NCBI GenBank assembly: GCA_002205965.3
Contig: NADL03000066.1
Coordinates: 1-64,000, forward strand
Length of the DNA: 64,000 nt
DNA from: Kappaphycus alvarezii
Taxonomy: Eukaryota; Rhodophyta; Florideophyceae; Gigartinales; Solieriaceae
Reading direction: 5' to 3'
A program made the translations under genes and the position numbers. This document shows positions 2,481 through 47,568 of this stretch, piece after piece. The notes under the pieces are model-generated. The model did not search any database. It was not told the DNA's origin and saw only the letters and a program-made list of their open reading frames with translations. The first letter of the stretch is position 1. Each line of letters opens with the position of its first letter.

Positions 2481-2490
2481 TCTATATAAA
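2481..2490 (+). promoter_or_regulatory. TATA box of the Hint-domain gene
   Basis: A canonical TATATAAA core sits about 60 nt upstream of the ATG at 2545. Transcription would start about 30 nt downstream of it, near 2515, giving a 5' leader of roughly 30 nt. The spacing fits well, and no other ATG lies between the TATA box and the predicted start. Confidence 0.6.
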
Positions 2491-2544: not shown

Positions 2545-3871
2545 ATGACTGGCAATAAGATTACCATTTTCTTGACACTTGCTTTGCTTTGCACCCATTC
2601 TTATGCAGACACCAGAGTTTTCAATAACTCTCTCGTTTATGGATTTTGTAAGTTTCGATTTTTTTCATTGCGAGAATTTTTTCTCATATTTTCTGACTTT
2701 GAAGTATCTCTCTTCAGATGGACACTTTTTTGAGATTGTAGAGGGAGCACCCACTGATAAGCCGTGCTCAAGAATCATTAGGCACATCAATGAGGGAACT
2801 GCTCAACTTGATGGTTCTGTTTCTATTTCACATGACGATATTCTTCACAGTGGCCAAAGTTGCAGTACTGGCGAAATGGTTATGACCGATACGCCTTCAG
2901 TAAACCCGTTTCGGGAATTGGACAGTCAGACTCCATTTATGAAAACCTTCTTAGATCTACAGGGTTCTGGTAGGAAAGTCGACCAGGTCATGTGGAAACT
3001 GGGAACTTCCAAATCCTACAGCTGTTTTCATGATTTTTGTTGAAAGGAACGGAATTATAGGACCATATGACTTTCCTCTTCCGAAAGGAAGCAAGTACAT
3101 CATTATGACTAATGATGATTACACATGTGTCTATAGCAGATCCCAAAGCCAACCCCTGCCCCTGCTGTGGCTACGCGGGAACCAGTTGCAATTTCAAACG
3201 GTGGTGATAACGAAACATACAGTGCTGAGGTATCATACACGGACGGCGATACACTGGCTGTTCCAGTTACTGTTATTCCAGGAGAACCATTCATAGTTGC
3301 ATCTTTGGAACCATCTCCAGAAGATGATGGTGAATCTGTATGCTTTCCAGGGGAATCTTTAGTGGAGTTGGAAGATGGAACAATCAAGAATATGTTTTCT
3401 TTGAGCATTGGAGATCGTGTAAGAGTTGGTCCCAGTGAGTTCTCCGAGGTCTTCATGTTCACGCACAAACTTTCTCAGACCTTCTACTCATTCATTAGAG
3501 TCCAAACGGACTCTTCTGCCATAACGCTTACAAAAGGACACTATCTTTACGTCAATGGTTTGTTAGCCACTGCCGGTACTGTAGTTGTTGGCGATACAGT
3601 CGAGCTAGCCACTGGTGACAAAGCAAGCGTAATTGGAATCGAATATGTCACTCGCAAGGGACTGTTCAATCCGCAGACCATTAATGGAAACATTGTTGTG
3701 AACAACATCAGGGCCTCTACATACACAATGGCGGTTGAGCCAGCCATTGCACATCGGCTTCTTGTTCCACTGAGGGCTATTTATTCACGTTTAGGATATT
3801 CTTTGAATATTTTCGAGTCTAGTCTACCAGGGTCAACATTGATCACGCCGAAAGGATCCACTGTTTATTAG
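2545..3871 (+). CDS. Secreted Hint (Hog-type) domain protein, spliced
   Basis: The product starts with a clear signal peptide (hydrophobic core in residues 6-16, likely cleavage after THSYA). A non-recognised N-terminal domain with two widely spaced cysteines follows, then a P/T/E-rich linker and a C-terminal Hint domain. Visible Hint features are the N-terminal Cys-Phe (Cys codon at 3341), a TxxH block (LTKGHYLYV, His codon at 3539) and the late block GNIVVNNIRASTYT before a short hydrophobic tail, as in Hedgehog Hog domains. In that family the Cys and His drive an N-to-S acyl shift and self-cleavage. No splicing-type C-terminal Asn is visible. Predicted exons are 2545-2647, 2718-2969 and 3022-about 3094, with a last exon ending at 3871. 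The first two introns (70 and 52 nt) have GT..AG ends and keep frame. The third junction, between 3095 and 3222, is unresolved: the obvious short acceptor (after 3139) is out of phase, while an acceptor after 3222 keeps frame. Expected length is about 350-385 residues. Hint is near certain; cargo function is unknown. Confidence 0.85.
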
Positions 3872-19320: not shown

Positions 19321-20824
19321 TCAAAGTCTTTCAAAAGAGGTTCTTCCCAAGGGCTTAGTCAAAACGTCAGCAACCATATCCTTCGTTTCGCAATAGACGG
19401 GGTTGATAACACCTTTGTCGAAATTCTCTATGACAAAGTTCTTCCGAATCAAAACATGCTTAGCATGTCTCACCCCTTCCTTGCTCCAAACCAGAGCTCC
19501 TTGATTATCCTCAAAGACTGTAGTACACACCTGGTCTACAGTCCAATTCGAAAAACAGTTCTCTTTACCAAAGGATCAATTTCGTCGCCTCGCTCAATGG
19601 ACAACATTCAGCCTCAGTAGTCGATAAAGCAACCGTTCCCTGCTTTACAGTGTTCCATGTGACACAAGTCAATCCAACCTGCAATAGAACACCTGTAGTT
19701 GATTTACGATCCATTCGATCGCCTGCCCAGTCTGCATCACAGTACACCGTCAGATTTGTATCCTCTTGACCAAATATTTGCAGTACATAGTTCGATGTTC
19801 CCTGAAGATAACGTAGCACAAGCTTCAGAGACGTCCAATGAACTTTCAATGGGTTCGAAACAAACCGGCAAAGTATTGAGACAGCGGCACAAATATCCGG
19901 CCTTGTTCGCGTGGAAAAGAGCAGCAGACATCCCAAGAGCTCCTGATACCTTCCGCGATCGGCGGGCTCACCAAGGAGATTTACAATTTCTTCTGGACAG
20001 CCTTCAGTCATGGGAGTAGATACCGCTTTACAATCAGTCATACCTAACCTTTTCAACACTTGTTGAACATAGTGACTCTGTGATAACCATGCTCCACCAC
20101 CATCTCGCACAAACAACATTCCTAGAAATGACTGCAGTTCTCCCAAATCTTTCACATCAAAATTTGAACCAATCTCCTTCTTCACAGCTGCCTCAGATTC
20201 CTTTGAAGGCGAAATGACAATGACTTCATCCACATACAGCAATATCCATACGTTTGCCCTGCGATAGAGACAAGGGTCTGATCGAAGCGTGCGAAATCTT
20301 AACGTGCACATTACTTCCTCCCACTTACCATACCAAAACTTTGCAGCTTTCTTCAACCCGTAAAGTGACTTACAAAGCTTCAAAATCTTTTCCTCAGAAC
20401 AGAGAGAAAAATCAACAGGTCCCTGAATGTAGATGTCATTAGATTCCCGAATCTCTCCGTACAAGAATGCCGTATTCACATCTAGTTGATGGATTGAATA
20501 CCCCCTCTGGACAGCCACAGCAAGGCATGTCCTCACCGTACCAAAGTCGATAACCGGCGCAAAAGTCTGATCAATATTCCCTAGCATGAATCCCTTTACA
20601 ACCAACCTTGCTTTGTAATGCACGACCTTGCCCTCCTCGTTGCGCTTGCGAACAAACACAAAACGTGTCGGCAGGTTCTTTGCTCTCTTCACATGGTTCA
20701 CTACCTCCCAGGTCCCATGCTTTCTCAAAGACTCCAACTCCGACTCGATGGCTTTTCTCCACTCAGCTGCATTACGTTGCTCGAATGCGTCAGTGACAGT
20801 TGCAGGATCATTTTTCTTCTTCAT
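19321..20824 (-). mobile_element. Element A: Copia reverse transcriptase and RNase H region
   Basis: This part shows the Copia RT hallmarks: WRKAIESELESL near the start, HQLDVNTAFLYG around the first catalytic Asp, LCKSLYGLKKA, an LLYVDEVIV segment where the family has YVDD, and later YCDADWAGDRMDRKSTTG and the ALSTTEAE block of RNase H. The final KDMVADVLTKPL block closes a normal Copia Pol. It is a fossil and is not expected to make enzyme. Confidence 0.9.
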
Positions 20825-20934
20825 TGATCAAAGCTAATGCCCTCATTACATTTGCACTTTCCGGAGTGTACCGCACTGTAGCCTCCTTATTGTGTAGTGG
20901 GTAACAACACTCAGACGCATCAACAGTCTCCAAA

Positions 20935-22235
20935 TTACACAGAACCATGTTCCTGTCCGAAATCTTCCACACTCTCTACTGCTCCAGGATCTGGATAGTG
21001 CGTTAACATATCAACTTGTTCCATCACAGGAGCAGATTCATGACTCTGATGCTCCGTTATTGATTCCCCAACATTCACCACTGGTTGTTGCGTAACTTCA
21101 CCTGAAAATGGCACATTAAAGTATTGCTCCAAGCCACTCTCCTCCTCGCTATGCAACGAAGTAGTATCAGCAATCAGCCGGTCATCTTCAATAATGTCTT
21201 GCTCTGAATTCAAATCTCTCCCCGGAAACTCATCCTTCACTATGGTCACATCACGGCTTATGACAACCGCATTTCTTGACAGTATCCACAGCTTGTATTG
21301 GCTTTTTTCAAAACAGCCAATCACTATTCCACGCTCAGATGTTGCATCTAATTTCTTGCGCAAGTCCTTGGCGATGTGATGCCATCCAAGGCACCCAAAC
21401 TCTCTAAAGTGTCGCAAGTCGGGTTTCTCACCAGACATTGCTTCGTGAGTCGTTATAGAATCAACTCGAGGGCAAAAGAATCGGTTCCGAATCTTCGTGG
21501 CATGCACCACAGCCTCAGCCCAAAATCTTCTCGAGAGCCCTGCGTGCTCCAACATGGCGCGTGCAGATTCCACAATAGTCCTGTTCGCACGCTCATCCAT
21601 ACCATTCAGGTTTGGCGAATATTTTGAGGTTATTTCGTGCTCAATTCCTTGCTGTGCAAGGTACCCTCGTAGGGCTACATACACCACCCCCATCACTCTT
21701 CAATCTCTTAATCTGACAGTCGTTCCTCCTCTCCAACCAGGCCTGATACAACTTGAACTCCTCAGCCACCTGGCTCTTCCTGGAAATCGGCCCTGCGGTC
21801 CCATATCCACTGTACTCATCAATAAATGTCACAAAATACTTAGACCTAGAGAAGGATGAGACAGACGTAGGACCGCAAACGTCCGAATGGATTAAAGCAC
21901 ACTTTTGCTTAGATCTTGAATTGTTTTTCCTCAGTCGTTGCCGCATCTGCTTTCCTTTCATTCAACCTTCACAGTTCGTCTGTGATGCCTTCTTGGGGCA
22001 TAATAAATCCCAGTGACTGCCCCTACCCTACGCAGTCCTTAATGCTCTCTAGATGAGCATGGCCAAGTCGCTCATGCCATAACTTCAGAGCTGCTTGGTT
22101 AGGGTCTCTTTCATCGCCATCGTTGCCATCCTTCGATATTGCAGCAGCTGCGATATAGCTATCTTCATCCATTGAAGTAGCACTTCCAATGATTTGATAT
22201 ACTCCCTGTTTCTTCCTGGCCTCAAACTGAATCAA
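20935..22235 (-). mobile_element. Element A: GAG-pre-integrase and integrase region
   Basis: The GAG-pre-integrase segment has the typical LWHERLGHAHLESI block. The integrase core has HSDVCGP, YFVTFIDEYSGYG and SPNLNGMDERANRTIVESARAML, with the conserved acidic residues of the DDE fold around them, followed by the FGCLGWHHI region of the C-terminal part. Order and spacing match Copia integrases. The part is broken in a few places. Confidence 0.88.
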
Positions 22236-22289
22236 TCAGTCCTTTAGCCCGACGGCTTTCGTACGAGACATTTTAATCCTGTATTCATC

Positions 22290-23530
22290 TCAGAAAGCCT
22301 CGAGCATGACAAAAAAATTACAGTTCAACTGTGGCACAACCAACACGTTTCTCAGGACCATGATGCGCTCATACCAGTTACCGGAGGACCCAACGAAAGT
22401 GCGAATTCTCAGAGTCCCTCTATGAGATGCCCAAACCCTGTTGCCATCTCCCAGCAGAATTGCCTTTGGCTCAATCGCGTGAACATTATTCAGCATGTTC
22501 GCATCCCAGACCATGTGGTCAGATGTGCCACTATCCAGCAAGAACAATTTAGGACTTCTCCCATTATCAGTCTTCGTCGACTTAACACTGGATGCGATTG
22601 TACACCGGAGATACGTATGGCCATATGTGCGAGCAATCCAATCTGCCTGTTCAATTTCCCTTCTCCCACCATTGGGAGATTCTCTAGCAAGGAGCAATCT
22701 TGCTGGCCTTGCACTGCCACTCTCGCGATCCCTCGACACTCGGTCCTCATCATCAAATGTGACACGCTTACGGTCTCGTTTTTGATACTTCATCGGGCAG
22801 TTAGACATGATATGGCCAACGTGCTTACATTTGAAGCATCTACGCGTCTCCAAGTTCCTGAGAGAACTTTTCCCATAGTGCCTGCCCTTATCACTGCTTG
22901 CAGAGAATGCCCTTGCATTTCCTTGCCTTCTAGGCCCCTCCGAGGACCTAGAAAGTATATCAACATACTCCTGTATCAACGATGCAGTAGCGGTCTCCCA
23001 GTCAAGCTCCGTTTGAGACATCTGCAGTGAAGCAATGACAGCTCCAAACGGTGATTGCTTCTTATCTCGAAAAGAAGCTAGCAGAGTAGCAACTTGTAAC
23101 TCACCATCGACTTCGTCGCTGCCCATCGCAGAAAGGCGATTGAATATCTCTTCAAAAATATCCACATAGTCCTGCATTGATTGTCCTGAATACCTCTTGT
23201 GCGAAAACTTTGCCTGCAACTGTACCTTCGTTGCAGTATTTGATACTGCATACCTGTCCTTTAGTCGTGACCACATCTCTAAGGGACTTTTCTTTGCAGT
23301 CAGACAAAGACGGAGCTGGCGGTCACCAAGTCCTTGAATGAGGATAGCCTTGGCCGTAGCTACCTTCTTTTTCACCTCCTCACTTAACTCCGTGTTATCA
23401 CCTACAACATTCGCCCTTATCATCCCAATCACACCCTTATCCTCAAGTGCAGCTTCCGTTCTTGCTGCCTAGATCTAGTAGGCCTCCCCAGACTTCCCAT
23501 AGAAGCGAAGCACCTTCTTATTGTCCTCCA
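22290..23530 (-). mobile_element. Element A: Gag, zinc knuckle and protease region
   Basis: A Copia-type Gag (UBN2 family) reads LEMWSRLKDRYA and YVDIFEEIFNRLSAMG, then a CCHC knuckle (CFKCKHVGHIMSNC) and an aspartic protease with LLDSGTSDHMV. The knuckle binds RNA in capsids and the protease matures Gag-Pol in living members of the family. The frame is long (380 codons open), so this is the best preserved part of element A. Confidence 0.88.
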
Positions 23531-46400: not shown

Positions 46401-46590
46401 CGATGAATATTCATTTTGATCGGCTTTTGCTCCGGGCGTGTCGAGTGGTGGGTGCTCTTTGCGTGCGGGGAGAACATCCTGGCATAACTGCTATGCGCAT
46501 CAAATTCAACGCCTGTCATCGACATCTGGCGATCACCTCTTTCCTCAAACGCACCGTTCTTCTTCATCTACTGCAAGTAATAAGGTCGTC

Positions 46591-47568
46591 ATGGCAGCAT
46601 CACAGCTATCCGATGTCGCGTACAATGCTACAACCATTCTTGACCCTGCCGCGCAGATTTTTTCCGATCAACTGCACGCCATCGTCAATTCCCTCTCAAA
46701 ACCGGTCTCCCCGTTGGCGAAACCGCTTCTCTCTAGCCTCGCTCCATATGGCCGCCAATTTGATGATCTCTTCATGGGGTACTTTGGCCCCGTTCATCCT
46801 CAGTCCTCTTCGTTCCCCCTCATGACGCCGCATCATGCCCTTTTGTTCGCCCTATCGTATCTCGCATTCGTCTTTACTTGTGCTCCTCTCTTCTCCCTTG
46901 TCGGCTTTTCCCTAAAACTCAAACCCCTCATGCGCTGCTACAACCTTTTCATGGTGATGCTCTCCTCGTATATGTGCATCAAGGCGATCCTCCTTGCACG
47001 CACACACCACAACTCGTTGTTTTGCGTCCCAATGCTCGAGGGCGCCGCCGGTGCGGAGTTTGCCCAGCTGGTATGGGTTTTTACTTACTCCAAAGTCATC
47101 GAATTCCTGGACACCGTCTTCATGATTTTTGAGGGTCGTCTCCGTCAAGTCAGCTTCCTTCACGTCTATCATCATGTCACCATCCTTACTTATTGGTTTA
47201 CCATTACGTGGGTAGCACCGGGTTCAGATGCCTATTTTTCTCTTGCGGGTAATTCGTTTATCCACATCTTAATGTATGGATATTACTTACTTGCATCGTT
47301 TGGTTATTCGCCGTGGTGGAAATACTACATTACAAAGGCCCAGATCACCCAATTTTGTCTCTTCTGCGTGCAAAGCATTTACGTCGGCTACGTGATGCCC
47401 GAGAGGGAGTGCGACTTTCCCGGGGTGCTCGCCAAGGGCCTTCTTTGGTACATGCTCACACTTATTGCCTTGTTCCTTCACTTTCTGATTACAAATAAGG
47501 GCAAAAAGAAGAGAAAGTCAGCAGCGATTGCCCAGAATCCTATTTCGGTAAAGGCCAAGAGCCAGTAA
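46591..47568 (+). CDS. ELO-family very-long-chain fatty acid elongase (3-ketoacyl-CoA synthase)
   Basis: This 325-residue, single-exon ER membrane enzyme catalyses the condensing step of fatty-acid elongation (acyl-CoA plus malonyl-CoA to 3-ketoacyl-CoA). ELO signatures are all present: KVIEFLDTVFMIF (168-180), the histidine box HVYHH (191-195), NSFIHILMYGYY (221-232) and ITKAQITQF (247-255). About six to seven hydrophobic segments span residues 85-300, and a lysine-rich tail (KGKKKRKS, 303-310) is of ER-retention type. Length is normal for the family. The ATG at 46591 is the first in this frame; the frame is open back to 46438 but without another ATG. Upstream ATGs at 46403 and 46493 lie in a different frame, so the transcript probably starts after them. 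Substrate preference (saturated or C18/C20 polyunsaturated) cannot be read from the sequence. It converges with the gene at 48467-49231. Confidence 0.95.
   Translation: MAASQLSDVAYNATTILDPAAQIFSDQLHAIVNSLSKPVSPLAKPLLSSLAPYGRQFDDLFMGYFGPVHPQSSSFPLMTPHHALLFALSYLAFVFTCAPLFSLVGFSLKLKPLMRCYNLFMVMLSSYMCIKAILLARTHHNSLFCVPMLEGAAGAEFAQLVWVFTYSKVIEFLDTVFMIFEGRLRQVSFLHVYHHVTILTYWFTITWVAPGSDAYFSLAGNSFIHILMYGYYLLASFGYSPWWKYYITKAQITQFCLFCVQSIYVGYVMPERECDFPGVLAKGLLWYMLTLIALFLHFLITNKGKKKRKSAAIAQNPISVKAKSQ

Follow-up and report, generated by a model that had tools for sequence, protein, structure and literature searches.

Hog proteins, in which a Hint fold is followed by a recognition tail, have been known from red algae since 2008, when they were described from Chondrus, Gracilaria, Griffithsia and Porphyra (Burglin, PMC2362128). 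The same paper proposed an ancestral secreted Hog protein, which may have carried a sterol or a similar group (PMC2362128). For animal Hedgehog, the roles of individual residues have been described. The Drosophila variant D303A keeps DTT cleavage and loses full cholesteroylation, while structure, pKa and activity are retained in the variant D303H, which accepts a wider range of sterols (PMC9163320). In SHH, an HPR motif is conserved in the first helix of the sterol-recognition region (SRR), and cholesterolysis in cells is impaired when conserved residues of this helix are mutated, while the loop between the two recognition helices is partly dispensable (PMC7906309).

We analysed a gene of this kind at positions 2545–3871 (+) of the window, that is, the whole 64,000-nucleotide stretch of DNA under analysis, which forms the first 64 kb of contig C66 in a 336,021,096-base assembly of 884 contigs from the red alga Kappaphycus alvarezii. 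In keeping with a red-algal source, phycobilisome proteins (PF00502) were matched on three contigs of the assembly, in each case above the cut-off. A preliminary description had suggested an independent origin of the protein in a non-animal lineage. This was not borne out, as non-animal Hog proteins, including those of red algae, were described in 2008 (PMC2362128), and the present family is a variant of these already known red-algal proteins. The features of the gene are as follows; the second copy on contig C8 (stretch L009) and the intact paralog L021 served for comparison.

2483..2490 (+): possible TATA box, TATATAAA, 54 bases before the start codon, proposed from the sequence only
2545..2647 (+): exon 1, with start codon, signal peptide (about 2545–2607) and the first 13 mature residues; from the sequence and the C8 comparison
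2648..2717 (+): predicted 70-base GT-AG intron, with GTAAGT donor and TTCAG acceptor
2718..3136 (+): remaining four-Cys ectodomain, 34% identical to L021, with three one-base gaps relative to the C8 copy
3137..3340 (+): acidic, P/T/E-rich linker in the translation, ending in SPEDDGESV before the catalytic Cys
3341..3736 (+), 3' limit approximate: Hint fold (PF01079; PDB 6td6, 6tyy, 1at0)
3341..3343 (+): Cys1, putative nucleophile of the N-S acyl shift, preceded by Val as against Gly in Hedgehog; Cys in 46/46 covering family segments
3464..3466 (+): His at the general-base position D46/D303 of Hedgehog, by alignment to 1at0 and 6tyy; 51/52 segments
3530..3541 (+): TKGH, the TxxH motif; His in 51/51 and Thr or Ser in 50/51 segments
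3737..3868 (+): adduct-recognition tail, by ungapped alignment to 7e2i residues 342–387
3752–3754, 3767–3769 and 3773–3775 (+): tail residues H, P and R, aligned with human SHH H374, P379 and R381
3869..3871 (+): stop codon TAG

Exon 1 translates as MTGNKITIFLTLALLCTHSYA, a plausible signal peptide as judged by eye. The exon junction reads YGFYGHFFEIVEG, resembling GLYGRFFEFVDQG of L021, and exon 2 is predicted to extend from 2718 to the stop codon at 3869–3871. The signal-peptide-like start at 2545 and the acidic, P/T/E-rich linker, both read by eye, agree with the preliminary description, and the Cys-Phe site (3341–3346), the TxxH motif (3530–3541) and the late GNIVVNNIRASTYT block were found where it had placed them. 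The possibility, named there as one that would refute it, that signal peptide and Hint region belong to different genes is argued against by L021, an intact 596-residue frame that joins signal peptide, N-terminal domain, linker and Hog. Elsewhere in the window, the open frames at 19565–23468 (−) resemble by eye a Copia-type retrotransposon (zinc-knuckle gag, integrase and reverse transcriptase), and a 382-residue frame at 46420–47568 (+) contains an HVYHH motif and resembles a fatty-acid elongase (ELO family).

The Hog-coding part of the gene, comprising Hint and recognition tail, covers 3341–3868 (+). The Pfam family PF01079 (Hint) matched residues 67–217 of the open frame 3137–3868 with 90.2 bits (E 1.8e-25) against a cut-off of 29.7; a profile match above threshold had been set beforehand as the test of the Hint/Hog assignment. 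In a PDB sequence search with the Hog alone, Drosophila Hedgehog 6td6 was matched at E 1.1e-11, its D46H variant 6tyy at 3.4e-11, the wild-type Hint 1at0 at 9.5e-10 and human SHH 7e2i at 1.5e-6, with a higher score for 6tyy than for 1at0 (46.4 versus 41.7 bits). A profile of 26 Hog sequences (the window and 25 paralogs) matched Hedgehog in the PDB at 5e-27. We regard the Hog domain and its family as certain. The 45-residue tail had been described as hydrophobic and as a possible adduct-recognition region; the latter idea stood, as the tail aligns with the sterol-recognition region of Hedgehog, whereas the former fell short, as, by the PDB alignment, the tail also carries H-x4-P-x-R, a motif known from the first sterol-recognition helix of Hedgehog. 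In our reading, this motif would correspond to motif K of Burglin.

Other assignments were also considered. No NCBIfam match, including to inteins, was found at E 1, and, unlike in inteins, the recognition tail is the last element of the window frame and no extein lies downstream. The VWA domain, by which a VWA-Vint protein would be recognized, was absent by Pfam from the window frames and from the paralog N-termini scanned. The Asp of the QTD segment was ruled out as the general base, as the alignment to 1at0 and 6tyy places position 46 at FTH. The predicted structure of the window ORF had a mean pLDDT of 39.8, too low for use.

As assembled, the window gene is unreadable in one frame, with one predicted intron and three one-base gaps. 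The C8 copy is 91.7% identical over about 3 kb including the flanks, and relative to it the window copy lacks single bases at 2905, 2969 and 3135, each adjoining an identical base. With the C8 bases restored, an open frame was obtained, giving STGFWVGKSTRSCGNW in agreement with STGFWMGVDARRCGRW of the intact L021. Further introns in place of the gaps were ruled out, as the stretch from exon 2 to the stop is then open and L021 is matched across the gaps. The three gaps, together with five other one-base differences within the coding part of the C8 copy, could be read as those of a pseudogene in decay, a reading that we consider very unlikely for several reasons. Each of the missing bases adjoins one of its own kind, as is seen with sequencing errors, and the one-base differences of the C8 copy are others; the N-terminal domain agrees with L021 across the gaps; and, over 412 codons (3 skipped; those at the gaps and the exon junction excluded), the two copies show 15 synonymous and 6 nonsynonymous differences (dS 0.053, dN 0.0065, dN/dS 0.12), indicating strong purifying selection. 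Because of this ratio, the gaps are probably assembly errors. A functional window gene is probable. The second copy of STT3 in the same assembly is also frame-broken, as expected of general assembly errors, though this STT3 copy could itself be decayed.

By a protein search of the genome, we identified 103 matches; merged at 800 bases on the same strand, these form 85 places on 63 contigs (86 if seven rows of a further search are added), and 75 of the places span at least 380 bases. Given these 103 matches and the dN/dS of 0.12 between the copies, the window match is not a matter of chance. Many of the places are near-identical pairs, and 39 sequences including the window fall into 28 clusters at 85% identity. 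The distinct genes are therefore fewer than the places, perhaps 45 to 60 by our estimate. The reading at sequence level covers the window and the fetched stretches, a subset of the 85 places. Same-strand neighbours lie 0.9–2.4 kb apart on C117, C26, C513, C77, C811 (two pairs) and C99, suggesting tandem duplication. For Hog relatives in viral and prokaryote collections, narrow short patterns gave 53 and 34 matches, respectively, none of which was confirmed.

We then compared the active-site residues within the family. For the profile count, 58 segments from 47 stretches and the window were aligned, with copies and partial frames included and no filter for stops or Cys1, and only segments with a letter at the given position were counted. 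Cys1 was found in 46/46 and Phe2 in 45/46 segments, the His of TxxH in all 51, and its Thr or Ser in 50 of 51. As no more than Cys1 and TxxH is needed to form the thioester, the Hog could be a disposable prodomain, with water as the acceptor and the ectodomain freely secreted. In keeping with such hydrolytic maturation, the second Cys of Hedgehog (C400, SCYA) is Cys in only 12/53 segments and Thr in the window, the residue preceding Cys1 is A, V, T, E, L or S, with Gly in 0/39, and the tail is short. We nevertheless regard hydrolysis as unlikely, as a hydrolytic domain would not require the residues known from sterol transfer in Hedgehog. His occupies the Hedgehog D46 position in 51/52 segments and is missing only from a frame-shifted fragment of L028, and the P and the R of the tail are each present in 48/48 segments, with the H in 36/49.

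The same residues were examined in a stricter alignment of 39 sequences, from which six matches had been removed for stops or for the lack of a Cys1 motif in the frame and shorter fragments had been left out. His-46 was present in 39/39, while P was absent in three (one Ala, two gaps) and R in five, where it was replaced by Ser in one and by Trp in another and fell in a gap in three. The sequences concerned (L017_2, L032, L037, L039 and L044) have frames that break or end at that point, among them L037, L017_2 and L044, of which one lacks P and the other two lack R. A less redundant subset of 26 of the 39 sequences has nine columns without any variation; Cys1, the TxxH His, the His at the general-base position and the P and R of the tail are among them.

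With His at position 46, the window Hog scored 90.1 bits against the Pfam Hint profile; substitution of Asp gave 90.0 bits, of Asn 87.6 and of Ala 86.3. As the profile makes practically no difference between His and Asp, both are normal at this position in the family, and the idea of the His as a red-algal speciality or invention was rejected. Given the behaviour of D303A and D303H in Hedgehog, the near-invariant His points to an adduct step, beyond mere cleavage. The short algal tail would fit the partly dispensable loop of SHH, and we regard sterol transfer by the Hog as plausible.

With regard to the N-terminal domain, the claim that it is cysteine-poor was wrong. Four Cys are kept in 14 aligned ectodomains including that of the window, three of them invariant and one at 90% or more, in the pattern CPxxIxH, C, RxCG, CxY. 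A profile of this domain matched 28 of the 47 stretches searched (L009–L055) at E 1e-3 or better, 12 of these 28 being training sequences and several others near-identical copies of these. When four-Cys proteins without Hog were sought, a single-sequence search detected only L021 and the window gene, each together with its second copy (on C610 and C8, respectively). No Pfam family was found for the two N-terminal frames of the window, and scanning of six full four-Cys paralog domains gave none in five and a sub-cut-off match to Neurokinin_B (E 0.23) in the sixth. Neither the Hedge signalling domain nor Wart, Ground or Ground-like gave a Pfam match in the window N-terminal frames or in the scanned paralog domains. 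A known fold was sought by a PDB profile search, with nothing under E 0.11. The picture of a secreted-looking protein of a non-animal, in which Hog is joined to an unrelated N-terminal domain, was thus upheld.

Hog is also joined to other ectodomains in this genome. Spondin_N and Hog share one open frame in L048 (3.2e-16), and also on C474 and C724, as judged there from coordinates and frame length; pentapeptide repeats and Hog do so in L046 (1.8e-8), Cu2_monoox_C and Hog in L031 (1.9e-10), and Fasciclin and the first part of Hog in L054 (5.7e-12). On the same strand upstream of Hog, with the frame not shared, we found Fasciclin in L034 (3.8e-14) and, below the cut-off, in L036 (8.8e-4), and Temptin_C in L015 (8.1e-28). 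No Pfam match was obtained for the Cys-rich N-termini of L049 and L052. In L024 and L026, Hog is preceded only by a signal peptide and a short stretch; in these two, which are near-identical to L023, the would-be released part is a short basic, Ser/Gly/Pro-rich stretch, and the product is possibly a secreted peptide. The signalling role suggested earlier was not substantiated; the joined domains fit proteins of the cell surface or wall no less well than signals.

Genome-wide, both Temptin_C matches (2/2) and both Cu2_monoox_C matches (2/2) lie beside Hog. Spondin_N is contiguous with Hog in 3 of 85 matches and Fasciclin lies beside Hog in 2 of 21, leaving 82/85 and 19/21 matches, respectively, away from any Hog match. 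Since most matches are not beside one, Spondin_N and Fasciclin proteins need no Hog; they occur with and without it, as the nematode Hedgehog-related ectodomains do (PMC2362128). Spondin_N itself forms a large expansion, with many identical scores among its 85 matches and several matches per contig (e.g. C598, C881, C883, C466 and C575).

Some of the joined domains are of the adhesion or matrix type (Fasciclin and Spondin_N), and Hedgehog D303H relaxes the acceptor geometry (PMC9163320). Both points would suit a thioester resolved by the hydroxyl of a wall polysaccharide or by another small alcohol, with the ectodomain becoming covalently fixed in the matrix. Such cross-linking appears quite improbable to us, as the tail resembles a sterol-recognition helix and as Hedgehog is processed in the ER, before a protein would meet the wall (PMC9163320).

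As to the supply of sterol, cholesterol has been reported as the main sterol of red seaweeds (PMC5104453) and as the main unsaponifiable of Solieria chordalis (PMC4584343); its content is lower in red than in green and brown algae, yet it is still among the major sterols (PMC4584343). Red algae have also been reported, in a statement attributed to a 2015 source, to be without GPI-anchor synthesis. In the genome, PIG-A (PF08288) and PIG-T (PF04113) gave no match at E 0.1, while the positive control STT3 was matched at 9.2e-91; these are two families of the GPI pathway, and divergent or much-interrupted genes could escape this search. Four Patched-family matches, which are not specific for Hedgehog reception, were found on C470, C479, C610 and C482.

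The reading that we favour, and hold as a whole to be rather probable, is that of a secreted precursor from which Hog removes itself, leaving a sterol ester as an anchor. The precursor would consist of signal peptide, four-Cys ectodomain, P/T/E-rich stalk and Hog. In the secretory pathway, Cys1 would attack the preceding peptide bond by an N-S acyl shift, aided by the TxxH His; the HPR helix of the tail would present the thioester with a sterol, most probably cholesterol, whose 3-hydroxyl would be activated by the His at the Asp position of Hedgehog. Ectodomain and stalk would be released with a C-terminal sterol ester and retained on the membrane or in the wall. In this way, Hog would serve various unrelated surface proteins of the alga as a portable lipidation module that removes itself. 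Underlying this reading are homology to Hedgehog, the conserved catalytic and tail residues, purifying selection, the variety of joined domains and the lack of a match for two GPI enzymes; cleavage, the sterol as acceptor and the anchoring role we infer. Counted against the sterol anchor are the absence of Gly before Cys1, the mostly lost second Cys, a tail shorter than the SRR of Hedgehog, a His that is no special adaptation, the many Spondin_N and Fasciclin proteins that do without Hog, the lower cholesterol content of red algae and the three frame gaps.

We hypothesize that an alga lacking GPI could anchor its surface proteins through the sterol ester that Hog would leave on them. In a broader and tentative form, which we consider possible and do not press, Hog may have replaced GPI anchoring in red algae through a cholesterol ester on the four-Cys, Fasciclin, Spondin_N, copper monooxygenase and, probably, Temptin ectodomains. 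Sterol-anchored proteins would then be the counterpart of GPI-anchored ones, and Hedgehog would have arisen in animals as one branch of an ancient, general means of anchoring. We met no proposal of a link between Hog and GPI, which does not establish its absence from print, as the two were never combined in our literature searching; the passages on Cyanidiales Kelch-Hint proteins in PMC9812998 and PMC13353863 do not connect them with GPI loss. The idea is well suited to testing in a lineage in which cholesterol is the main sterol, Hog genes number in the dozens and searches for two GPI enzymes gave no match. Such a lineage could show that the attachment of sterols to proteins is not peculiar to animals, and would supply a list of candidate cell-surface or wall proteins of red seaweeds, together with a reason for their retention on the cell.

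Compared with the red-algal Hog proteins in the account of Burglin, as given in the relevant passages of PMC2362128, the present family is alike in its C-terminal Hog, in the motifs J and K of the untruncated members, in the replacement of the second Cys (there by Ser, Thr or Asp) and in an upstream part without a known domain. In those passages, each species is represented by between one and six sequences, which are often fragmentary, whereas here 85 places were found in one genome. New here relative to them are the fusions of Hog to surface domains already known and an ectodomain defined by four Cys, for neither of which was an earlier report met in our literature searching. The Kelch-Hint proteins of Cyanidiales, as described in passages of PMC9812998, likewise form multi-copy red-algal families, with Hint joined through a T/P/A-rich linker; their partners are Kelch and trefoil domains and their genes mostly subtelomeric, whereas the partners here are others. 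The copy number is also higher here than the 2 to 17 Hog genes per genome given for Cyanidiales in PMC13353863. The nematode warthog, groundhog, ground-like and quahog families also carry Hog on lineage-specific ectodomains, some of which occur free of Hog as well (PMC2362128), but these ectodomains are unrelated to ours, as no such Pfam match was found in the scanned N-terminal domains. Animal Hedgehog (1at0, 6td6 and SHH 7e2i) shares Cys1-Phe, TxxH, the general-base position and the H-P-R helix; unlike it, the window protein has no detected Hedge domain, His in place of Asp, a shorter tail and no Gly before Cys1, and the second Cys is mostly lost in the algal family. The Drosophila variant D303H (D46H; PDB 6TYY) has the same active-site His, which in that protein was engineered, whereas in the algal family it is natural and near-invariant.
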